Part shown: positions 1,169 through 34,337 of the stretch, piece after piece
Layout of the letters: every line of letters starts with the position of its first letter
Numbering within the stretch: position 1 is the first letter of the stretch
Source: Synechococcus sp. RedBA-s
GTDB taxonomy: Bacteria; Cyanobacteriota; Cyanobacteriia; PCC-6307; Cyanobiaceae
Length of the DNA stretch: 34,337 nucleotides
Assembly: GCF_024345495.1 (NCBI RefSeq)
Contig: NZ_JAGQBF010000027.1
Span: forward strand, 1-34,337
Reading direction: 5' to 3'
Notes under the pieces: generated by a model
The model's input: the letters and a program-made list of their open reading frames with translations, nothing else
The model's database searches: none
Told to the model about the DNA's origin: nothing
Made by a program: the position numbers and the translations under genes

Positions 1169-1993
1169 CTACGGCGGTCCCTGATCCTCCAGTTCCACGC
1201 CGGCACCGGGCACCTCCAGCCAGCGGCGCAGCCAGGCCACCAGCAGATAAAAAGGCAGGGTGTCGAGCAAGGCCGCCACCAGCTTGAACAGGTAGCCGCT
1301 GGCGATGAAGCTTCCCAGCTGGGGCAGCACCGCCTGCTCGGCCCGCAGGGGCAGCACGTGGGCGGCGTAGTGGCTGATCAGCACCACCGCCGTGGTGTCC
1401 ACCAGCTGGCTGATCAAGGTGGACCCGTTGTTACGCAACCACAGGGCCCGGCCGCCGCTGAGACGCTTCCAGAAATGAAACAGCCGCACGTCAGTGAACT
1501 GGGCGGCCAGGTAAGCCACCATCGAAGCCCCCACCGCCCCGAAGGCCAGGGTTCGCATCTCATAGAACAGGGGCAGCCGCTCCCCCGCCAGGGCCAGCGG
1601 CAGCCCAGCACTGCCGCCATGGCCATCGAGGCCCGGCAGGATTCCCCCCAGCCAGAGGATCAGCACGATCCAGCCATTGAGCAGCAGCCCCACCCACACC
1701 AACTGACTGGCCCGCCGCTCCCCCCAGATCTCACTGATCAGGTCGGTGCAGAGGAAGGTGATCGGGTAAGGCAGGGCCCCCACCGCCACCACGATCGGCC
1801 AGCCCGCGATCGAGCCAAGGGTGAGAAAGCGGGTGAGGCCAAGGATGTTGAGCATGCCCATCGTGCCCAGGAACAGGCCGGCCAGCACGAGAAAAGCCAG
1901 GTCACGGCGCTGCTGCAGGGTCACGGGCGACAAGCGAAACGGGCGTTCGCCCCAGCCTGCCGGCCCCGGCCCCGGATGCAACAGTGCCCCCAT
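1169..1993 (-). CDS. yhhQ: COG1738 (YhhQ/VUT family) integral membrane transporter, probable queuosine-precursor uptake
   Basis: A polytopic membrane protein with the family hallmarks YPITFLCTDLISEIWGERRA in the first half, STLISQLVDTT in the middle and SGYLFKLVAALLDTLPFYL near the C-terminus. E. coli YhhQ imports queuosine precursors (preQ0/preQ1), and that role is inferred here by family. About six membrane spans are visible. Start choice is uncertain. The ATG at 1993 has a purine-rich GGGGGTGG just upstream but shares its CATG with the truB start. TTG at 1933 or GTG at 1924 would remove a Pro/Gly-rich, family-unlike N-terminus and leave a short divergent spacer. The frame also stays open to an ATG at 2077, inside truB, which is unlikely. 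Confidence 0.82.
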   Translation of the reverse strand: MGALLHPGPGPAGWGERPFRLSPVTLQQRRDLAFLVLAGLFLGTMGMLNILGLTRFLTLGSIAGWPIVVAVGALPYPITFLCTDLISEIWGERRASQLVWVGLLLNGWIVLILWLGGILPGLDGHGGSAGLPLALAGERLPLFYEMRTLAFGAVGASMVAYLAAQFTDVRLFHFWKRLSGGRALWLRNNGSTLISQLVDTTAVVLISHYAAHVLPLRAEQAVLPQLGSFIASGYLFKLVAALLDTLPFYLLVAWLRRWLEVPGAGVELEDQGPP

Positions 1994-2912
1994 GACCACC
2001 CCCGGCAGCCACCCCAGCGCCCACCAGCCCCAGGCGCCGTGCGGGTTCCTGATCCTCGACAAGCCGGCCGGCCTCACCTCCCACGACTGTGTGGCGCGGG
2101 TGCGCCGCCGTTACGGGCTCAAGCGTGTGGGCCATGGCGGCACCCTCGATCCGGCCGTGACCGGCGTGCTGCCCCTGGCACTGGGGTCGGCCACCCGGCT
2201 ACTGCCCTACCTCGATGGGGCCAAGGCCTACCGGGGAGTGATCCAGCTGGGCCTTTCAACCGACAGCGACGACCTCAGCGGCAGCGTTCTGCAGCGCCGG
2301 CCGCTGCCGCCCCTCAGCCGGGAGCTGCTGGAGGCGGCCCTGGCCCCCTTCTGCGGTCCCATCCTGCAGCGACCGCCGCAGGTGTCGGCCGTGCACGTGC
2401 AGGGAGAGCGGGCCTATGCCAGGGCCCGCCGCGGCGAGCACTCGGAGCTGCAGGAGCGCGCCGTCACGATCGAGCGGCTGGAGCTGCTGAGCTGGGATCC
2501 CAGCTCAGGGCGACTGGAGCTGGAGCTACGCTGCAGCGCCGGCACCTACGTCCGCTCCCTGGCCAGGGACCTGGGTGAGGCCCTCGGCTGCGGCGGGGCC
2601 CTGGCCGAGCTGCGTCGCACCGAAGCCCTGGGTTTCCCCCTCAGCGCCGCGGTCCGCTTCGAGGAGCTGGAAGCCGAGCCGCCGCCGCCGCCCCTGGCTC
2701 CCCTGCTGGCCCTGGGTCACTACCCCAGCGTCAGCCTGGAGCCCGCCGATCTGGTGAGCTGGCGCTGCGGCCGGTGTCTGGTCGGCCCCGAGCACCTGGA
2801 GAAGGACCAGGTGGTGGTGATGCTGGATCCGGATGGCAACCTGGCAGGGATGGCCAGGGCCACTCCAGACGGCTGGCTTCAGCCCAGGCTGGTGCTGGAG
2901 GCCACTGGCTGA
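1992..2912 (+). CDS. truB: tRNA pseudouridine(55) synthase
   Basis: Isomerises U55 to pseudouridine in the T-loop of tRNAs. The 306-residue product has the N-terminal [15 protein letters not shown] motif, the catalytic block [18 protein letters not shown] with the active-site Asp at residue 53, and the later [15 protein letters not shown] motif of TruB. The ATG at 1992 gives a short leader before the conserved region; the frame is open further upstream but runs antisense into the divergent transporter gene. The stop is 26 bp from the yebC start, so the two genes are probably cotranscribed. Length matches bacterial TruB proteins. Confidence 0.96.
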
Positions 2913-2938
2913 TCCAACCCATCCTCGATCGATCCCCC

Positions 2939-3712
2939 ATGGCCGGCCACAGCAAGTGGGCCCAGATCAAACGTCAGAAAGCCGTGGTCGATGCCCGGCG
3001 GGGGGTGGTCTTCACCCGCCTAGGGCGGGAGGTGACGGTGGCGGCTCGCAACGGCGCTGATCCAGCCGGCAATTTCCAGCTGCGCACCGCCATCGACAAG
3101 GCCAAGGCCGCCGGCATGCCAAGCGCCAACATCGAGCGGGCCATCGCCAAGGGATCCGGCCAGGGCGGCGGCGAGGCCGATCAGTTCGAGGCGGTCCGCT
3201 ACGAGGGCTACGGCCCCGGCGGGGTCGCGGTACTGGTGGAGTGCTTCACCGACAACCGCAATCGCACCGTCGCCGACCTGCGCCTGGCCTTCAGCAAGCA
3301 GGGGGGAAACCTGGGGGAGAGCGGCTGCGTCGGGTACCTCTTCGAGCAGCAGGGGGTCGTGCGGCTGGAGCCGCCGCTGCCCGGTGAAGAGGCCCTGCTG
3401 GAGAGTCTGCTGAGCCTGGAGGAACAGGGTGGTCCGCCGGTGCTGAGCTACAGCCTGGAGGGGGAGAACGCCGAGGTGTTCTGTGCCTACTCCCAGCTGG
3501 AGGCCCTGCAGCACCAGCTGAGGCAGCAGGGCTGGCCCGTGCACGACTGGGAGTTGCGCTGGATGTCGTCCACCCCCTGCCGGCTGGAGTGCGAGGAGCA
3601 GCTGCGCCGCTGCCTGCGCATGCTCGATGCCCTCGAGGAACTCGATGACGTGCGCAGCCTCACCTCCAACCTGGAGGCCGACGCCGAGCTGCTGGATGCG
3701 GTGATGGGCTGA
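2939..3712 (+). CDS. yebC: YebC/PmpR family transcriptional or translational regulator
   Basis: The 257-residue protein opens [19 protein letters not shown] and contains [19 protein letters not shown] and [14 protein letters not shown], all signatures of the YebC family, with typical length. Members act as DNA-binding regulators, and recent work ties some of them to translation through proline-rich stretches; which role applies here cannot be decided from sequence. The ATG at 2939 is chosen because the conserved N-terminus starts there. It lies 26 bp after truB and ends 4 bp before the convergent nagB stop, leaving almost no room for a terminator. Confidence 0.95.
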
Positions 3713-3716
3713 ACAC

Positions 3717-4490
3717 TCAGCCCCCCATGGCTGCGCGATCCACGAACAGACGCAAGCCCGGATGGCCCTGCAGCCAGCTGGCCGGCAGCGAGGGCGCCGG
3801 GGGCTCACTCAGCAGTCGCGCCAGGATGCCGGCCTTGGTGGAACCACTCACCACCAGCAGGATGCGCTCGGCCCCGAGGATCTGCTCCAGGCCCAGGGTG
3901 ATGGCCCCGGCTGGCACCCGGCCTGGATCCCCGCCGAAGGCCGCCGCGTTCTGGTGGCGGGTTGCGGCGCTGAGGCGGAGGCTGCGGCTGGGGGCATCGG
4001 GGCCGCAGGGGGGCTCGTTGAAGCCCACATGGCCGTTGCTGCCCAGCCCCAGCAGCTGCAGGCCAATCCCTCCGGCTGCCGCCACGGCTTTGGCATAGCG
4101 ACTGGCCTCGGCGGCCGGATTCGCCGCGAGGCCATCGGGGAGCTGCAGCCGTGCGGACTTCAGGCTCAGGGGAGTGACAAGACGGCAGGCCATCTCCGCG
4201 GCAAACGAGCCCGGTTGCGCCGGCCCCAGCCCCACGTATTCATCGAGGTTGAAGCTGCGCCAGCGCTCTCGGATGGCCGTGAGCTGCTCGGCCGGCAGGG
4301 CCAGCAGCCGTACCACCAGGGCGTCGTAAACGGGCTCCATGGTGCGGCCGGTGGCCAAACCCAGGGGGCGCTTCAACCCGTCGCTGAGCTCCTGGTGCAA
4401 CAGTTCAGCGACACGCCCGGCCAGGGTCGATGGATGGTCGAAGCACTCGAAGCGGCCGGCCAACCAGGCGGGAAGAGCAGACGAGGGCAC
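3717..4490 (-). CDS. nagB: glucosamine-6-phosphate deaminase
   Basis: Converts glucosamine-6-phosphate to fructose-6-phosphate and ammonia in the cytoplasm. The 257-residue protein belongs to the NagB/6-phosphogluconolactonase superfamily. The subgroup is set by FNLDEYVGL (about 80-88) and GLGSNGHVGFNEP (about 148-160), the latter resembling the Bacillus-type enzyme, together with LGLATGRT near the N-terminus. No signal peptide is seen. It lies 53 bp downstream of the SpoIID-domain gene on the same strand, which may link amino-sugar recycling with an envelope protein; that link is inference. A 6-phosphogluconolactonase is the main alternative but fits the motifs less well. Confidence 0.9.
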   Translation of the reverse strand: MPSSALPAWLAGRFECFDHPSTLAGRVAELLHQELSDGLKRPLGLATGRTMEPVYDALVVRLLALPAEQLTAIRERWRSFNLDEYVGLGPAQPGSFAAEMACRLVTPLSLKSARLQLPDGLAANPAAEASRYAKAVAAAGGIGLQLLGLGSNGHVGFNEPPCGPDAPSRSLRLSAATRHQNAAAFGGDPGRVPAGAITLGLEQILGAERILLVVSGSTKAGILARLLSEPPAPSLPASWLQGHPGLRLFVDRAAMGG

Positions 4491-4543
4491 CGGAGGCGGG
4501 CGTGGTGATCAGCTGATCCGCCGCTGCAGCCGCGGATCGATAC

Positions 4544-5929
4544 TCAGGAGCCTCGCCCGGCGACGGCTCCTTGCGCCAGGGGGCCGGAGCCGGCCCGCAG
4601 CGGTTGCACCTCAACACCGCGGTAGTAGTGCTGCAGGATCTGATCGAATCGGCGGCCCTGCCGAGCGAGGGCATAGGCCCCCCACTGGCTCATGCCCACC
4701 CCGTGACCGAAGCCGCGGCCCACGGCGATGATCACCGGCGAGGGCGGAGCCAGGGGGCGCGACGGGGGCGGCGAGAGCAGGGAACCCAGCCCCACCGGCA
4801 GCGGCGTGGCGCCTGAGAGGGCCGGGGCATTGAAGCTGAAGGGGGCGGCCTCGAAACGCACCAGGGTGCTGCGCAACCCCAGCCGGCTGCGCAGCTGAGC
4901 ACCGGTGAGCACCACGGCTCCACTCGGTCCGATCACCCGTGCCTGGCGCACCCGGCCGCTGCCCGTGGTGGAGAGCACATCAATGCGGCTGACACCACCG
5001 ATCTCGGCAAAGGCGCCGGCCAGCATCTGGGGGGAGAGGGTCTTCTCCCAGCGGGCCACGGGGCTGGAGTCGTCATAGTCGGGGACGCTCACCAGGTAGG
5101 GCAGCTGGCGCGACCAGAGATCACCGCTGTTCTCGGTGCTGCCCCCGCTGCTGCTGTGGAAGACGGCATTGATCAAGCTGTTGCCGTGCATCAGCACCAG
5201 GCCCTGGGTGCTGCGCACCGCCTCACGGGTGGAGGCGGTTTCCGCCTCGAGGCCCTTGTAGGCCTGGCTGATGACTGTGGCGTGCAGATCAAAGGGGGCC
5301 GAGGGTTTGCGCTGGCGCAGGGCATAGGTACGCGCCGCCACGGCCTGGGCCCGCAGGGCCTCCAGGGGCCAGCTGGCGGGCATCTCACTGCCCACCACGC
5401 TGGGCAGATAGGTTTCCAGCTCGATGACGTTGATGGCCCGCAGCTTCGCGGCTTCCACCTTCACCTGCAGCCGGCCCCTGTAGCGGCGACTCTCGATCTG
5501 CAGGCTGGCGAAGCCAGCCGAATCGGGCAGGGGCTCCAGCCAGAGCTCGCTGAGGCTGAGGCTGCCGGAGCTGCCCTGGGTCACCGCCGAGGGTTGGGCC
5601 TGAATCCGGCCACCCACCTGGCTGAGGGCGAGGGTGGCACCAGCGGGCATCCTCAGCAGCTCCCCACCCCTGGCATCGCGCAGGCGCAGGCCGCTGCTGC
5701 CCGCCACCCGGATCGACGGCAGGTCCAGCAGCAGCACCCGCAGCTGGGGATTGATGGAGCGGCTGGCCAGCAGGGGTTGGAGTCTGCCGGCGGCCACCAC
5801 ATCCTCGGCCTCGTCCTGGGCCACCGCTGGGGCAGCCGCCAGCAGCCCTGACCCCAGCAGCAGCGCCTGGGGCAGCAGGGCCGCGACCAGGGCCAGGGAG
5901 CGGATCCGAGCGGTCTTGGGAACAGCCAT
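4544..5929 (-). CDS. exported SpoIID/LytB-domain protein
   Basis: The start at 5929 gives a Sec-type signal peptide: KTARIRS, a hydrophobic core, then APAVAQ at about residue 37. The SpoIID core follows, with [40 protein letters not shown], and [20 protein letters not shown] near the C-terminus. In Bacillus, SpoIID is a lytic transglycosylase that trims denuded glycan strands, and cyanobacterial homologues are thought to act on peptidoglycan. The C-terminus carries a Pro-rich stretch ([14 protein letters not shown]) between domain parts. The frame extends upstream to 6022, but that portion lacks conserved sequence and would bury the signal peptide. It is divergent from rnz and probably shares the promoter region. 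Confidence 0.9.
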
Positions 5930-6042
5930 CAACAGCGGCAGCCATGCAACGTGCGCGCCATTGTGACCAGCACATCCCCGAGTCGCCAGAGCCACCCTGG
6001 ACAGAGCCTGACGTGGCAGCATGCGCCAAAGGGTCAGCTGGA

Positions 6043-28153: not shown

Positions 28154-28828
28154 ATGAGCCTGCGATTCTTCCTCGATTCGGCCGATCCTCTCGCCTGGGA
28201 GGAATGGATGTCCACAGGGTTTTTTCACGGCATCACCACCAATCCCACGCTGCTGCGGCAGGCCGGCCAGGTCTGCAGCGTCTCTCACCTGCGCTCCCTC
28301 AGCCGGCGGGCCCTCGATTTCGGCTGCCAGGAGCTGCATCTGCAGGCCTGGGGGCGCGAGCCCGAGGCCCTGCTGGATTGCGCCCTCGCCCTCGCTGAGC
28401 TGGGCCAGGGGCAGATCACCATCAAAGTTCCGCTCACCAGGGCCGGCACCACCGCCGCGACAAAGCTGGTCGCCCGCGGCATTCCGCTCACCTTCACCGC
28501 CTGCTACGAAGCCCCCCAGGTGCTGGTGGCCGCAGCCCTCGGCGCCCGCTACGTCGCCCCCTACCTGGGCCGCATCCAGGACCTGGGCCGGGATGGCCAC
28601 CAGGAGCTGATCACGATGCAGCAGTGCGTGGATCACAGCGGCTCGAGCCTGAAGCTGCTGGTGGCCAGCCTGCGGGTCACCAGCGACCTCAGCCGCCTGG
28701 CGGCGGCCGGGATGACCACCTTCACCCTCTCCCCCCAGCTGGCGGCGGCCCTGTTCAGCTGCGAGGCCAGCAACGCCGCCGCGGCCCGCTTCGACGCCGA
28801 TGCCGACGCCACCCTGGTGCAGCGGTGA
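28154..28828 (+). CDS. transaldolase-family protein (small, fructose-6-phosphate aldolase-like)
   Basis: A 224-residue TIM-barrel protein of the small transaldolase group (TalC/MipB/FSA-like). It has RFFLDSADP with Asp8, ITTNPTLL (27-34), the Schiff-base lysine K91 in TIKVPLTRAG, LTFTACYEAPQVLVAAALGARYVAPYLGRI, and LLVASLRVTSD with the usual post-catalytic Arg. It probably forms or cleaves ketose phosphates through a lysine imine, either transaldolase or F6P aldolase; sequence alone does not separate them. It follows atpC by 16 bp, and its stop overlaps the next start in GTGA (28825-28828). Confidence 0.88.
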   Translation: MSLRFFLDSADPLAWEEWMSTGFFHGITTNPTLLRQAGQVCSVSHLRSLSRRALDFGCQELHLQAWGREPEALLDCALALAELGQGQITIKVPLTRAGTTAATKLVARGIPLTFTACYEAPQVLVAAALGARYVAPYLGRIQDLGRDGHQELITMQQCVDHSGSSLKLLVASLRVTSDLSRLAAAGMTTFTLSPQLAAALFSCEASNAAAARFDADADATLVQR

Positions 28829-29958
28829 GCAGCAAGGGACGGGAACTCGGTCTGCAGCTGAGGGCCTGGCACAAGGCCGGCACCCCGGGACTCAGCAACG
28901 GCAGGGCCATCGCCAACCGGCTGGTGGATCTGCTCGGGGCCGAGGAGCGCCTCAAGGGCCCTGTACGCGATCTGGCCGACCAGCCCCTGCTGCTGCGGGC
29001 CCTCCAGGAGAGCGGCGCCGGCCGCAGCACCTCCGTGCAGCTGCTGGCGGAGCAGCTGGGCAGCACCTATGCCCCAGCCGTGCTGGAGGAACTACTCGAT
29101 CTGCTGGAGGCGGCCACGGGGGTGACCATCACCCGGCCCCAGGGTCCTGGTCCCAGCGCTGACTCCTCTGCAGCCCAGAGGCCTGAGCCGCAGTCGGCGG
29201 GGCGGGCGATGGGGCACTCGCTGCGGGCCATGGGCCCAGGAGCGGCCCTGGCGGCGGGCGCGGCTCTGGTGCTGCGCTGGCTCAGCGGCGAGCTGGACCG
29301 CTGGCTGTTCCGGTCGTGGGGCTGGCAGGGCTGGCTGGTGCTGGCGCTCACCCTGGCCCTGCTGCAGGCCCTCAGCCTCGGTCCGCTGAAGTGGACACGG
29401 CGCCAGTGGCCCCTGGAGCAGGCCGATGCCAGCGAACCCCGCCAGGCCTGGCGCTGGATCACCGCCCCCTGGATCCACCACAACCCCCTCGAAGCGGTGC
29501 TGAATGTGGCGCTGCTGCTACTGCTCCTGAGGGCTCCCTCACCGCTGCCCCTGGCCGATGTGGTGCTGCGCTACACCCTCACCAGCCTGGCCACCACGGC
29601 CCTGGCGCTGCTGGTGGCGGAGCGGCGCACCAGCGAGCGGCGCTGGGATGGGGCCGCCGGAGCGGTGAGCGCCCTGATCGGCCTGGCGGCCGGCTCCAGC
29701 CTGCTGTACTGGCGTGCGCTCTCCTTCAACCTGGGCCCGATCGAGATTCCCAGCTGGGTGCTACTGCTGGTGTACGGCGCCCTGCAGCTGGGCTGGCAGC
29801 TGCCCCGCCAGAGCGAGGACGATGACAGCCTCCCCCTGGATCGCCTGCTCAGCAGCCAGTGGTGGTGGGGCCTGGCACTGGGGGTGGCCTGGGCGCTGGT
29901 CAACCGCTTGGACACCCTGCTGGACCTGGCTCTGAAGGCGAGGGGAGCCGGGGGCTGA
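28825..29958 (+). CDS. rhomboid-like integral membrane protein lacking catalytic residues
   Basis: A 377-residue protein from a GTG overlapping the previous stop. Residues 1-110 are soluble and helical, 111-130 a Ser/Pro/Gln linker, and the rest holds about six or seven membrane spans. The membrane part follows the rhomboid layout: AWRWITAPWIHHNPLEAVLN resembles the rhomboid helix with H-x4-H-x3-N, and DGAAGAVSALIGLAAG (275-290) resembles the GxSG active-site helix. The Ser position is Ala278, the second His of the first motif is Glu223, and the last helix has Trp where the catalytic His would be (WWWGLALGVAWAL, 346-358). Residues His219 or His218 and Asn227 remain. It could be a non-catalytic substrate-binding rhomboid relative; the assignment is by eye. 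Confidence 0.7.
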   Translation: MSSKGRELGLQLRAWHKAGTPGLSNGRAIANRLVDLLGAEERLKGPVRDLADQPLLLRALQESGAGRSTSVQLLAEQLGSTYAPAVLEELLDLLEAATGVTITRPQGPGPSADSSAAQRPEPQSAGRAMGHSLRAMGPGAALAAGAALVLRWLSGELDRWLFRSWGWQGWLVLALTLALLQALSLGPLKWTRRQWPLEQADASEPRQAWRWITAPWIHHNPLEAVLNVALLLLLLRAPSPLPLADVVLRYTLTSLATTALALLVAERRTSERRWDGAAGAVSALIGLAAGSSLLYWRALSFNLGPIEIPSWVLLLVYGALQLGWQLPRQSEDDDSLPLDRLLSSQWWWGLALGVAWALVNRLDTLLDLALKARGAGG

Positions 29959-29998: not shown

Positions 29999-32245
29999 TC
30001 AGCTCTGCTTCCCCGCACTGATCGCGGCCATGTAGCGCCCCCACAACTCGGCCACCAGGGCGCCGCTGGCCGCCTGGGCCGGCCGGTTATCGTCGTTGCC
30101 CATCCAGATGGCGGTGAGGATCTCCAGCGATGGGGAATAGCCGATGAAGAGCACGTCAACGCCGTTGTCGGTGGTGCCGGTCTTGCCGCGGCCATCGGCC
30201 ACCACCGCCGCCGCCCGGCCCGTGCCGCTGCGCACCACCTCCGCCAGCAGACCGTCCATCACGGCGGCATCGCTCTCGCGCAGCAGCTGGCGGGGCTGCT
30301 CACCGATGGGGGTGGTCACCCCCCGCTCCGGGCAGGTGGCGAGGCTGTAGATCGAGCGGCAGATGCCCAGGTCGTAGATCTTGCTGACGCCATGCATCGG
30401 CACACTGCGGCCCCCGTTGGCCACCACGGCATAGGCCCGGGCCAATTCGTAGAGCAGGGTTTCACGGCCGCCGAGCATGGTGTTGAAGTCAGCGTCGAGG
30501 GGGGTGCTGATCCCCAGCTGACGGGCCTTGCGCACCACCTGCTTCAGGCCGGCTTTCTCGGCCAGGCGCAGGGCCACCACGTTCTCGGAATCGGCGAAAC
30601 CCCGCACCACACTGATGCTGCCGCTGCCACCACTGCCCTGGCGACAGCCGGCCACATAGGAGAGGGGGGCACAGGAGATGGCCTCCTCGGGGCTGGTGCC
30701 GGTCTCCAGCGCCGTCAGGTAGGGGAAGAGCTTGAAGGTGGAGCCGGGCTGACGCAGGGCCTGGACCCGGTCGAAGCTGGAGCGGGAATAATCACCGCCG
30801 CCCACATAGGCGAGGATCTTGCCGCTGCGGTAATTGAGCGAGATCAGGGCCCCCTGGGTGAGCCCCACCCCCGCGGCTGGCCCCTCAAGAAAGCGCTGCA
30901 ACTGCTGCTGGGAGAGCTGCTGCAGCTTCGGATCGATCGTGCTCACCACGTAGTAGTTCCCGCCTGAGGCCTTCTGCGAAAGGTTGAGGCCGAAGCGGGT
31001 GCCCTCCAGCTCGCCGAGCACGTAGTCGCTGAAGAAGGGATAGCTGGAGAAGCTGGAGTCGCGGCAGGCCGAGGGATCGATGTTGAGGGGCCGCCGCTGA
31101 GCATCGATCAGTTGCTGATCGCCCAGATAGCCCTGCTCATGCATCAGCTTGAGCACCAGGTCGCGGCGCTCACGGCCGGCGGTGGGATCCTTGGTGTTGC
31201 AGGGGCTGTAGCCATTGGGGCTGGGCAGCAGGCCCACCAGGAAGGCCGCCTGTCCCACGTCAAGCTCCGTGGCCGACTTGCGGAAATAGAGCCTGGAGGC
31301 CTGCTCGAAGCCATCGGTGCCGAGGCCCAGATGGGCCCGGTCGAGGTACATCTTCAGGATCTGGTTCTTGCTGTAGCCCACCTCCAGCTGCAGGGCCACC
31401 CACAGCTCCCGCAGCTTGCGGCTGAGGCTGTAGTCGGTACCAACTTCGGGGTAGTAGATGCGGGCCACCTGCTGGGTGAGTCCGCTGCCGCCGCCGCTGC
31501 CCAGCAGCACCGAGCGCAGGGTGCCAAACAGATCGACCCCGCTGTTCCAGCCGAAGCGCGCCTCCTCCGAGGCCATCAGCGCCTGGCGCAGGTGCAGGGG
31601 ATAGGCCTGCAGGGAGGGCAGAGCGGTGGCGGAGCCCTCCTTGGCGTCAATCTGCTGACCGGAGGCCGAGACGATCTTCACGGGGCCCGAGATCAGGCGA
31701 ATGCGCGAGCCACCACCGACGGAGGAGACCAGCAGCAGACCGCCCACCAGCAGTCCGGAGCCCAGCAGGCTGCCCAGGCCCAGCAGGTGCAGGGCCTGCT
31801 CCAGCGGGCTGCGGAAGTGCAGGTAGCGCAGGCGAGGAGCCGAGCCCCTGAGCGGCGAGCCCAGCTGCACCTGATCGCCATGGCGCAGGCGGATGGAGCG
31901 GATGCGGCGGTCACGGTGGAAGAGGCCGTTGGCGGAGTTGAAGTCTTCGAGTGCGAAATCGCGCTCACCGGGGCGCGGCTTCTCCAGGATCGCGTGCACA
32001 CGGCTGAGGCTCTCCGCCTCGATCGGCAGCTCACAGGCTGGATCGCGGCCGATGCGATAGCGCCCCTCCGAGAGCACGGTGCGGCTGATCCGCCGCTCCC
32101 CGAGCCAGAGTTCCGCCACGGCCTGGCGTTCCAACAGCTGGCCCCACGCAAGGCGAATGGCGGCGGGGCGCCCATCGGGCCCTCCACGCCTCCAGGCGGC
32201 CAAGAAACGGCGCCAGGCGCTCCCCGGAGTGGACGGCTCGACCAT
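29999..32245 (-). CDS. FHA-domain class A penicillin-binding protein (glycosyltransferase/transpeptidase)
   Basis: Bifunctional peptidoglycan synthase of 748 residues. In order: an N-terminal cytoplasmic FHA domain (about 45-145) with YRIGRDPACELPIE and SLSRVHAIL, the phosphothreonine-binding Arg/Ser/His set; one membrane span (151-176); a GT51 glycosyltransferase domain (about 205-370) with MASEEARF, which holds the catalytic Glu, and GGSGLTQQVAR; and a transpeptidase domain (about 435-740) with S502-T-F-K505, S553-E-N555 and K688-T-G690. FHA domains on class A PBPs are known in cyanobacteria but not in the E. coli model enzymes. It is divergent from the FHA/kinase cluster, which suggests control by phosphorylation. 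The ATG at 32245 lies upstream of all domains. Confidence 0.93.
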   Translation of the reverse strand: MVEPSTPGSAWRRFLAAWRRGGPDGRPAAIRLAWGQLLERQAVAELWLGERRISRTVLSEGRYRIGRDPACELPIEAESLSRVHAILEKPRPGERDFALEDFNSANGLFHRDRRIRSIRLRHGDQVQLGSPLRGSAPRLRYLHFRSPLEQALHLLGLGSLLGSGLLVGGLLLVSSVGGGSRIRLISGPVKIVSASGQQIDAKEGSATALPSLQAYPLHLRQALMASEEARFGWNSGVDLFGTLRSVLLGSGGGSGLTQQVARIYYPEVGTDYSLSRKLRELWVALQLEVGYSKNQILKMYLDRAHLGLGTDGFEQASRLYFRKSATELDVGQAAFLVGLLPSPNGYSPCNTKDPTAGRERRDLVLKLMHEQGYLGDQQLIDAQRRPLNIDPSACRDSSFSSYPFFSDYVLGELEGTRFGLNLSQKASGGNYYVVSTIDPKLQQLSQQQLQRFLEGPAAGVGLTQGALISLNYRSGKILAYVGGGDYSRSSFDRVQALRQPGSTFKLFPYLTALETGTSPEEAISCAPLSYVAGCRQGSGGSGSISVVRGFADSENVVALRLAEKAGLKQVVRKARQLGISTPLDADFNTMLGGRETLLYELARAYAVVANGGRSVPMHGVSKIYDLGICRSIYSLATCPERGVTTPIGEQPRQLLRESDAAVMDGLLAEVVRSGTGRAAAVVADGRGKTGTTDNGVDVLFIGYSPSLEILTAIWMGNDDNRPAQAASGALVAELWGRYMAAISAGKQS

Positions 32246-32304
32246 GCGGAGCTGAACAGGCAGGCCTTGGGGATACGCTACGCGCAGCGATCTCCCCGCC
32301 CGTA

Positions 32305-32577
32305 CTGAGCCAGCGCGATCCCTGGGAGCCCTTCAGGCTCTGGCTGGCCATCACGATCGGGCTCTATGCGATCCGGGCCAGTTTTGCCGCCACCTGGGTG
32401 GGGGCCATTCCCGGCTGGGTGCTGCTGGTGATGGTGCTGGTGGCCCTGCTGCTGGCCAGCAAGGCCCTGCTCTTCCCCGGCCGGGTGACCCCGCAGCGAA
32501 CGGGCGATGGTGGCTGGTGGAGCGACCTGCAGGACGACTGGCGCCTGTGGTGGCACCGCCGCCAGGGCAACCCATGA
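32305..32577 (+). CDS. small membrane protein between the FHA genes, function unknown
   Basis: A frame of about 90 codons ends in TGA at 32575-32577, overlapping the next ATG. The product reads LSQRDPWEPFRLWLAITIGLY, then AIRASFAATWVGAIPGWVLLV, then MVLVALLLASKALLFPGR, with two hydrophobic spans, then a Trp-rich tail (GWWSDLQDDWRLWWHRR). No ATG, GTG or TTG lies at the right place. CTG at 32305 is used here as the left limit, and the frame continues upstream without a stop toward the divergent PBP start. The amino-acid pattern and the ATGA coupling support a real gene; the start is unresolved. There is no known family that I recognise. Confidence 0.6.
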   Translation: MSQRDPWEPFRLWLAITIGLYAIRASFAATWVGAIPGWVLLVMVLVALLLASKALLFPGRVTPQRTGDGGWWSDLQDDWRLWWHRRQGNP

Positions 32578-33290
32578 CCCCACATCCAGCCCAGCTGCGC
32601 CTGCGGGATCAGCCGGACAAGCTGGCCCGGCTCGATCCCGCCCGGCCCCTGACGATCGGGCGGGAGAGCAACAACCGCCTCTGCATGCCTGAGCAGCTCG
32701 GGCTCTCCCCCCACCACGCCGTGGTGCGCCACTCCAACAGCCACCAGAGCTGGGTGGTCTGCGACTGGCAGAGCGCCGATGGCACCTTCCTGCGCGGGGA
32801 GCGTCTGCAGCAGTGCCGGCCCTTGGCCGATGGCGATGAGATCCGGCTCGGGATGCGTGGTCCAGTGCTGATCTTCGAGCTCACTGCTGCAGCCCCCGCG
32901 GTTCAGCCAGCGGCCCGGGCGGCAGCGGCGCCAGCGGCCCAGCCGCCGGCGGCAGCGGTCAGCAGCCTCGACATCGCTGGCCAGCAGATCCCCCTGGAGC
33001 AGATCCGATCGGCCACGGTGCAGAGCCTGCCCCGCCACCCCCACATCTTCAGCTGGTGGCTGCTGGTCTGCCTGGGCGGTCTGCTGCTGCTGCCGTTCCC
33101 CGTCCTGTTCTGGCCCCTGGAACTGGCGGCCCTGGCCGGCTGGATCCTGCTGGGCTCCCGTAAGGAGCACACCCTCACGGTGGAGCTGCGGGATGGCCGT
33201 GCCCAGCGCCGCAGCTTCGCCAACCGGCTCACGGCCCTCTCCCATCGCAACGGGATCCGCAAGGCCATCGGCCAGAGTCTGGAGGCCTGA
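32574..33290 (+). CDS. FHA-domain membrane protein
   Basis: A 238-residue protein. The FHA domain spans about residues 8-103, with LTIGRESNNRLCMPE (Arg30), GLSPHHAVVRH (Ser45, His48) and QSADGTFLRGERL in place of the more common NGTF. An Ala/Pro-rich linker (about 104-128) leads to a short soluble piece, a hydrophobic hairpin (about 159-194, WWLLVCLGGLLLLPF and LAALAGWILLG), and a basic C-terminal tail with LTVELRDGRAQRRSF that may form a small beta unit. FHA domains bind phosphothreonine, so a phosphoprotein partner is expected. The start overlaps the stop of the small membrane-protein gene, and the kinase-like gene begins 19 bp after its stop. Confidence 0.9.
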   Translation: MTPHPAQLRLRDQPDKLARLDPARPLTIGRESNNRLCMPEQLGLSPHHAVVRHSNSHQSWVVCDWQSADGTFLRGERLQQCRPLADGDEIRLGMRGPVLIFELTAAAPAVQPAARAAAAPAAQPPAAAVSSLDIAGQQIPLEQIRSATVQSLPRHPHIFSWWLLVCLGGLLLLPFPVLFWPLELAALAGWILLGSRKEHTLTVELRDGRAQRRSFANRLTALSHRNGIRKAIGQSLEA

Positions 33291-33309
33291 ACGCCGAAGC
33301 CAGCCCTCC

Positions 33310-34337
33310 GTGACCTGGATCCTGCCGGAAGGCGCCAGCCTTGATCTGGAGGGGATCTCCAGCCCACTGCAGGTGCTGCGCGGGCTCGGTGGCGGCAGCC
33401 AGGGCCAGGTGTTCGAGGTGGAGGTGGCCGGCGAGCGCCTGGCACTGAAGTGGTATCTGCCGGCCTGCATCGCCCGCGATCCCCACCTGAAGCGGCGCCT
33501 GGGCGAGAGCATCCACGCCACCGCCCCCAGCGAGGCCTTCCTCTGGCCGCTGGCCCTGGTGACGCCCGGCCCTGGCGCCTTGCCGCTGCTGCGGCTCACG
33601 GAGCCGGGCTTCGGCTACCTGATGCAGCTGCGGCCGCCGGGGTTTGTGGGGGCCCATGAGCACGTGGGCGGCCACCTGGCCATCGGCCTGCTCCAGGTGC
33701 TGAGGGCCGGCTTTTTCCTGGCTGAGGCCTTCCACTCCCTGCACCTCAAGGGCCTCTGTTACAAGGACATCTCCCTGGGCAACCTGTTCCTTGAGCCCTC
33801 CAGCGGCCGCATCCTGATCTGCGACAACGACAACGTGGATGTGGATGGGCGGGATCTGGGCAGCGTGCTCGGTACCCCGGGATTCATGGCCCCGGAGATC
33901 CTGATGGGCCGGGCCCGGCCGGGGGCCAACAGCGATCTCTTCTCCCTGGCGGTGCTGATCTTCCGCCTGCTCACCCGCCACGATCCGCTGCGGGGCCGGA
34001 GGGAGCTGGCGATCCACTGCCTGGATGAGCCCGCCCGGCGCCGTCTCTACGGCGAAGACCCCCTGTTCATCTTCGATCCGGTGGATGCGAGCAACCGCCC
34101 CGATCCGATCGAGCACGCCGCGGCCCTGATCACCTGGCCGATCTATCCAGAACCGATCCAGCGGCTGTTTGAGCAGACCTTCTGCGCCGGGATGCAGGAC
34201 CCCCAGCGTCGGGCGCTCACCGGCCAGTGGATGGCGGCCCTGGCCGCGGCCCTCGACCAGCGTCAGCTCTGTGGCTCCTGCGGCCAGGAAACCTTCCCCG
34301 CTCCCAGCGAACCCGCCCCCCTGTGCTGGAGCTGCGG
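33310..34337 (+). CDS. divergent Ser/Thr protein kinase-like protein with C-terminal zinc ribbon (partial)
   Basis: The frame from a GTG at 33310 runs off the window end (342 codons seen). Kinase features are a glycine-rich loop LGGGSQGQVFEV (26-37), Lys47 in LALKWYL, the catalytic loop YKDISLGNLFLE with Asp153 and Asn158, DND (172-174) in place of DFG, and GTPGFMAPEI (188-197). HRD is changed to YKD and the usual catalytic-loop Lys is Ser155. After the kinase domain come CGSC (321-324) and CWSC (339-342), a zinc-ribbon pair. It resembles the atypical kinases found with FHA, PP2C and VWA genes in some bacteria (YegI/TerY-associated type); that comparison is from memory. It is probably cotranscribed with the FHA gene. 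Confidence 0.85.
   Translation, partial: MTWILPEGASLDLEGISSPLQVLRGLGGGSQGQVFEVEVAGERLALKWYLPACIARDPHLKRRLGESIHATAPSEAFLWPLALVTPGPGALPLLRLTEPGFGYLMQLRPPGFVGAHEHVGGHLAIGLLQVLRAGFFLAEAFHSLHLKGLCYKDISLGNLFLEPSSGRILICDNDNVDVDGRDLGSVLGTPGFMAPEILMGRARPGANSDLFSLAVLIFRLLTRHDPLRGRRELAIHCLDEPARRRLYGEDPLFIFDPVDASNRPDPIEHAAALITWPIYPEPIQRLFEQTFCAGMQDPQRRALTGQWMAALAAALDQRQLCGSCGQETFPAPSEPAPLCWSC

Follow-up and report, generated by a model that had tools for sequence, protein, structure and literature searches.

We analysed a stretch of 34,337 bases (hereafter the window), which is the whole of contig C20 in the genome of Synechococcus sp. RedBA-s (61 contigs, 2.7 Mb), and focused on a gene cluster at its right end that may couple protein phosphorylation to cell wall synthesis. 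At this locus, a gene for a class A penicillin-binding protein (PBP) with an FHA domain, here called PBP-A, is divergent from a run of genes for a small Trp-rich membrane protein, an FHA membrane protein and a protein kinase (Table 1), and all four genes reported in an earlier note on this DNA were confirmed. The divergent gap, described there as about 60 bp, is 56 bp when counted from the start at 32302 that aligns with the starts of relatives. Of 11 relatives, 10 have GTG and one has TTG as this start, and the GTA found at 32302-32304 of the window reflects either a lost start, the use of another start codon or a sequencing error. The ATG of the FHA membrane protein overlaps the stop codon of the small protein (ATGA), and the GTG of the kinase at 33310 lies 19 bases beyond the stop codon of the FHA membrane protein. 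In Pfam, PBP-A matched FHA (1.3e-14), Transgly (2.6e-40) and Transpeptidase (2.6e-21), and the kinase, in its longer ATG reading, matched Pkinase (1.6e-13). The contig terminates within the kinase gene, where the last features are the cysteines C321, C324, C339 and C342 of the zinc ribbon already ascribed to this protein; because the contig stops at 34337, nothing further to the right can be read from it.

Table 1. Positions of the genes and features of the PBP-A locus in the window
Feature	Position	Strand	Basis
PBP-A, class A penicillin-binding protein with N-terminal FHA domain, 748 aa	29999-32245	-	Pfam; conserved in relatives
FHA domain of PBP-A	31859-32059	-	binding-site R, S and N each 48/48 (R67 and S81 in the window protein)
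PBP-A GT51 motif I, E227 to G236, SEEARFGWNSG, with Asn234	31538-31567	-	alignment
PBP-A GT51 motif II, GGSGLTQQ	31469-31492	-	alignment
PBP-A transpeptidase domain, aa 468-706	30128-30844	-	Pfam; active-site Ser 48/48
Spacer between divergent start codons, 56 bp	32246-32301	none	aligned start of relatives
Small Trp-rich membrane protein, 91 aa as aligned; first codon GTA	32302-32577	+	alignment
FHA membrane protein, 238 aa	32574-33290	+	Pfam FHA 9.3e-14
TerY-P-type protein kinase, GTG start, 342 of about 444 aa inside the window	33310-34337	+	Pfam; relatives
Kinase zinc ribbon, C321-C342	34270-34335	+	four Cys invariant in 25 rows

With a 4-kb stretch of the relative G007 as the query, the rest of the kinase was located on another contig of the genome studied here: the end of C7 (96-97% identical) encodes kinase residues 345-444 followed by a VWA protein, a PP2C phosphatase and a sixth gene. 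The same order is seen in G007 (locus L038), where PBP-A on the minus strand is followed by the genes for the small protein, the FHA membrane protein, the kinase (444 aa), the VWA protein (260 aa), PP2C (428 aa) and a sixth membrane protein (332 aa). Thus, the VWA and PP2C genes that the earlier note expected beyond the window exist both in relatives and in the genome itself. The full proteins of the operon matched Pkinase (9.6e-14), PP2C_2 (5.2e-24) and, above the cut-off, VWA (1.1e-07); no Pfam family above the cut-off was obtained for the sixth product, and the label IMS for its gene is one that we presume. The catalytic residues K47, D153, N158 and D172 of the kinase and its four ribbon cysteines (CxxC...CxxC) are invariant in 25 aligned rows, and the Pfam match of the ribbon (0.83) falls below its cut-off. 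The Ser/Thr residues of the metal-ion-dependent adhesion site in the VWA protein and the motifs VADGHGG and GSGDD in PP2C are also conserved in the alignments. The predicted structure of the kinase has a pLDDT of 83.2, and the 50 PDB matches listed for it are mainly or wholly protein kinases. After the ribbon, residues 345-444 (L038 7393-7692) form an all-beta domain in the predicted structure, which could be a degenerate FHA-like fold, although the Foldseek list was filled by kinases.

By gene content, the kinase with its zinc ribbon, the VWA protein and PP2C constitute a TerY-P-type triad. Such a triad comprises a kinase-zinc ribbon protein, PP2C and a TerY-like VWA protein, for which a role in metal sensing or phosphorylation was hypothesised (PMC11090510; this and the other papers cited here are represented by excerpts), and actinobacterial kinase-ribbon-beta domain proteins with PP2C and vWA were also described (PMC7159879). 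The operon shares with TerY-P all three proteins, their adjacency (39 of 41 cyanobacterial loci, with contigs ending in the other two) and the layout of the kinase C-terminus, in which the zinc ribbon is followed by a beta-rich domain. It differs from TerY-P in its coupling to an FHA-PBP and to two membrane proteins, one small and one with an FHA domain, and no restriction or tellurite genes are present among the named neighbours. While the triad is of a known kind, its PBP-A output is new.

The firmest result is that the triad and the FHA-PBP move together as a unit. In a first set of genomes, strong kinase matches were obtained in 8/8 genomes of the same genus and 4/28 other genomes of the family. 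A scan of named genome contigs gave 42 kinase loci, 41 of which are of cyanobacterial appearance, including Cyanobium, Synechococcus, Vulcanococcus and Aphanothece; Synechococcus sp. WH 5701 has the operon (L091). These 41 loci contain PBP-A (40), the small protein (40), the FHA membrane protein (41), VWA (39) and PP2C (39), and the gaps coincide with contig ends. The arrangement is retained down to 55% kinase identity and is therefore not due to chance. In 201 genomes of the family, some of which are shared with the 42-locus set, an FHA-PBP-type match (1e-30) was found in 98, operon-type PBP-A (better than 1e-80) in 34, the kinase (1e-20) in 36 and both PBP-A and the kinase in 34 (Fisher 1.8e-36, a test that ignores relatedness). 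All 34 pairs lie on one contig, on opposite strands and 1.0-1.6 kb apart. The linkage of the four genes across related genomes is therefore borne out in both sets. Even within mixed genera, PBP-A and the kinase are jointly present or absent, occurring in 2 of the 9 listed genomes of g54, 1 of 9 of g58 and 9 of 10 of g6. Moreover, the six-gene block in G130, G167 and G188 (loci L133, L134 and L136) stands without any of the nine usual flanking genes. A quick IQ-TREE tree of PBP-A and a FastTree tree of the kinase both pair L133 with L085, which occupies the usual chromosomal site, and L134 with L089. In a search across the phylum (386 genomes, E at most 1e-40), the 9 genomes with the kinase all belonged to the family of the window, and no additional VWA tails were obtained. 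We believe that the triad and PBP-A are very probably connected and work as a single functional unit.

The two kinase-only genomes, G060 and G148 (74% complete), gave no FHA-PBP match, and the locus of G148 is readable over 4.9 kb only. Because their kinases are nested within the PBP-linked clade of the FastTree kinase tree, the absence of PBP-A may be secondary. In G060, the opposite strand 5 kb upstream encodes a protein with ABC transporter domains and two stretches that match FHA. At this locus (L131 3347-5659 and 6643-9367), the triad is thus found near an FHA-ABC transporter and TPR proteins resembling trypsin-type proteases, instead of PBP-A. The 42nd locus, L099 in a Bacillota metagenome-assembled genome (MAG), has a kinase (34-36% identity), VWA and PP2C related to the triad at 2165-5954; PBP-A, the small protein and the FHA membrane protein are all missing, and no FHA-PBP match was found within 13 kb. 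One of the 41 loci of cyanobacterial appearance (L080) is on a contig titled as a Bifidobacterium breve MAG, which is probably a mislabelled or contaminated bin.

PBP-A differs from the FHA-PBP that is widespread in cyanobacteria (PBP-B). A survey of the class (145 genomes) found an FHA-PBP-type match (1e-40) in 111 genomes and the kinase (1e-15) in 11, and the genome studied here has three GT51 genes, namely a canonical PBP (C34), PBP-B (C5:6969-9182) and PBP-A. In a tree of 48 PBP-A rows, 28 PBP-B rows (the best-scoring outside loci that were kept, and the copy of this genome) and one canonical PBP, PBP-A forms a single clade (support 100) on a stem branch of 1.73, and joins three PBP-B of the family with a support of 84, for which the program flags a possible long-branch effect. 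From these sequences, PBP-A is a strongly diverged, duplicated copy of the widespread FHA-PBP. When GT51 positions were set by alignment to Acinetobacter baumannii PBP1a (PDB 3udf), the His of motif I was replaced by Asn in 48/48 distinct PBP-A sequences, whereas it is His in 28/28 PBP-B and in the canonical PBP; the Thr of motif II was replaced by Gly in 48/48, whereas PBP-B has Thr in 26 and Ser in 2 of 28. Both are conserved residues of the GT51 pocket (PMC6053601), so we do not claim an active polymerase, and the substitutions make a weakened or altered polymerase slightly the better guess. Given the changed glycosyltransferase site, PBP-A is probably either a mainly cross-linking enzyme (a regulated transpeptidase) or a polymerase that is slow or depends on a partner. 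The structure predicted by AlphaFold (pLDDT 63.9) is too poor to judge this site. PBP-A resembles PBP-B in its architecture (FHA, transmembrane, GT51 and transpeptidase), and the two catalytic GT51 Glu, the transpeptidase Ser and the FHA residues R, S and N are retained in every row of both proteins; unlike PBP-B, it has Asn and Gly in the GT51 motifs, a long stem and a divergent triad. Consistent with the earlier proposal that the FHA domain of the PBP binds phosphothreonine, its predicted binding residues are therefore intact.

As candidate phosphorylation sites, we listed the Thr residues conserved in at least 90% of rows in the alignments of the seven operon proteins (PBP-A, 48 rows; small protein, 46; FHA membrane protein, 49; kinase, 53; VWA, 51; PP2C, 43; sixth protein, 17). 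Among them, only Thr247 of the VWA protein is a tail Thr with an acidic residue at +3. The tail, NIPLPDLPPTxxDPxDDVGPLVW, lies beyond the folded domain after a variable linker; Thr247 in its PPTxxD motif is conserved in 50/51 rows (Lys in the Bacillota locus L099), the +3 Asp in 49/51 (missing in L136 and L099) and the terminal Trp in 51/51, and the VWA protein of the genome studied here carries the PPTxxD tail as well. The small Trp-rich protein, which has two hydrophobic stretches by eye, was considered by the earlier note to be the likely adaptor and perhaps the phosphorylated partner. However, across 46 distinct sequences a single Thr reaches 90% conservation, and it sits in the first hydrophobic stretch; this role was rejected because it has no conserved soluble Thr. 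As judged from the alignments, the PPTxxD tail is the better candidate for the phospho-ligand. Recognition of this type has parallels, such as Rad53 FHA1 with pTXXD (PMC3146460) and the activation of type VI secretion by FHA binding to the pThr of a membrane protein (PMC3953482). The pairing proposed here would be analogous to that of ArnA and ArnB in Sulfolobus, where the FHA protein (ArnA) binds the C-terminus of the vWA protein (ArnB) in its phosphorylated form (PMC6509490). Unlike the operon, ArnA-ArnB controls motility genes and the site lies in a helix bundle, and single-site mutants left motility unaffected (PMC6509490).

It was also proposed that both FHA proteins act as readers. This view agrees with the intact binding residues of PBP-A and was weakened for the FHA membrane protein, in which the binding Arg and Ser are both kept in 40 of 49 distinct sequences, including that of the window, and at least one is lost in 9. 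PBP-A is therefore the more constrained reader. The FHA membrane protein has a hydrophobic hairpin towards its C-terminal side (by eye), and it likely serves with the small membrane protein as a membrane scaffold.

Taken together, the interpretation in the earlier note is borne out in outline, except for its choice of adaptor, and we propose a TerY-P-type phospho-switch with PBP-A as its dedicated output, to which, with the tail-docking model included, we give a probability of roughly 50%. Upon some cue, the kinase would phosphorylate the Thr of the VWA PPTxxD tail, the cytoplasmic FHA domain of PBP-A would dock on this phosphothreonine, and docking would recruit or gate PBP-A at the inner face of the membrane, until PP2C reverses the phosphorylation. 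Docking of the tail on the PBP-A FHA domain is the more tentative part, with odds somewhat below even. Kinase activity and the effect on the wall are likewise predicted. If true, a peptidoglycan synthase would here be equipped with a phosphothreonine reader, and a class A PBP would show conserved changes at its polymerase site. The back-to-back arrangement of an altered FHA-PBP and a switch of a type known chiefly from anti-phage and stress systems suggests a phosphorylation-controlled branch of wall building in a group of small cyanobacteria. TerY-P triads are widespread and, in the portions of the literature examined, their outputs are hypothetical, whereas the output here can be named, an enzyme that carries a domain for reading phosphorylation. 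With this enzyme and a predicted substrate site narrowed to a single residue, the logic of the triad becomes testable. Our literature search, which did not reach the key 2012 paper (Anantharaman et al.), found no link between TerY-P and a PBP.

In mycobacteria, PknB with FhaA/MviN is an example of a Ser/Thr kinase and an FHA protein acting on peptidoglycan synthesis. The comparison with this system, drawn in the earlier note, stands as a functional likeness only, since the kinase here gave no PASTA match (Pfam, E up to 1) and groups with TerY-P kinases. To our knowledge, the PknB-FhaA/MviN system has no VWA protein, and unlike in that system, the FHA domain here sits on the synthase itself.

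Several points weigh against the proposed switch. First, the identical tail motif occurs in G060 and G148 without an FHA-PBP, so its presence is not tied to PBP-A. Of seven outside VWA proteins, only that of L180 has a TxxD tail, and those of L182, L099, L050, L183, L184 and L185 do not; L182 comes with an FHA gene, yet has no Thr in its tail. The +3 Asp is missing in L136. Something other than FHA docking could also account for the conservation of the tail. Second, both catalytic Glu of the glycosyltransferase are retained, so the polymerase of PBP-A may still work. Third, a large part of the linkage reflects shared descent at a single locus, and the kinase tree does not agree with the PBP-A tree on the position of L135. 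Control of PBP-A by the switch is deduced from sequence. As a separate observation, the TerY-P triad of L180 (4180-6696, outside the family) is accompanied by two FHA genes, one for a membrane protein and one for an FHA-PrsW protease.

Of the other explanations, the strongest keeps the triad in control of PBP-A and assigns the FHA ligand to the kinase itself, PP2C, the sixth product or an unlinked protein, the VWA tail serving for membrane or partner docking. Phosphorylated kinases are often bound by FHA domains, Thr189 of the kinase (GTPGFMAPE) is invariant (53/53), and the sixth product and PP2C are further ligand candidates. However, Thr189 lies within a folded segment near the APE motif, and the combination of a tail position with an acidic +3 residue is unique to VWA Thr247 among the conserved Thr, which makes this explanation possible and rather unlikely. 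A defence or envelope-stress system, in which PBP-A would be an effector on the cell's own wall after attack, as for TerY-P triads beside restriction systems, is improbable. The unit is patchy in some genera and mobile, and the kinase matches the PADLOC models mad6 (1.3e-13) and PD-T4-6 (2.9e-13); but these matches span about 105 residues of the general kinase fold only, VWA reaches only 0.0011 with the PADLOC TerY model, the other four operon proteins scanned gave no match at 0.01, and the neighbours at the common site are housekeeping genes. Finally, that the PBP and the triad are old neighbours by shared descent and functionally unconnected is very improbable, since descent alone could give a PBP beside the operon in 40/41 cyanobacterial loci with mostly the same flanks, but not one of 34 PBP-A genes stands apart from the kinase, the entire block is present at three other chromosomal sites, the two are gained or lacking together in mixed genera, and PBP-A keeps its FHA binding residues (48/48).

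Returning to the phospho-switch on PBP-A, it may be, although we hold this extension to be doubtful, that a TerY-P switch captured a duplicated FHA-PBP as a conditional cross-linker with a weak or dead polymerase, turned on by docking of the phosphorylated tail on the FHA domain, which would make it a direct phospho-switch acting on a peptidoglycan synthase, and that the cassette is mobile with a swappable FHA output, as exemplified by the FHA-ABC transporter near the triad of G060.

Among the neighbouring genes, a rhomboid-like membrane protein (window 28825-29958) is convergent with PBP-A. Its catalytic Ser position has S in 25, A in 12 and T in 3 of 40 sequences, with Ala in the close relative L038. 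The gene was not found near L133, L134, L136 and L137 and was left out of the core; it was also not found in 8 operon-less genomes, in a search that had no positive control. A match to the kinase query at window 1992-2912 (E 4.5e-04 over 43 residues) was rejected as chance. When compared by hhalign with a three-sequence alignment of membrane proteins from L131, L133 and L134, the rhomboid-like protein and the sixth product scored 96.1% and 96.9%, respectively, and 1.2% directly against each other. Against four proteins beside outside triads, the sixth product scored 85.5%, the rhomboid-like protein 1.1% and the L131/L133/L134 trio 5.2%, and ten column-shuffled controls gave at most 0.58%. These scores are suggestive only of an N-terminal helical domain common to the rhomboid-like protein, the sixth product and the membrane proteins of L131, L133 and L134. 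Membrane proteins near the triad that may share this domain, for which there is no Pfam family, lie at L038 9777-10775, L134 14033-15280 and L131 6643-7389.

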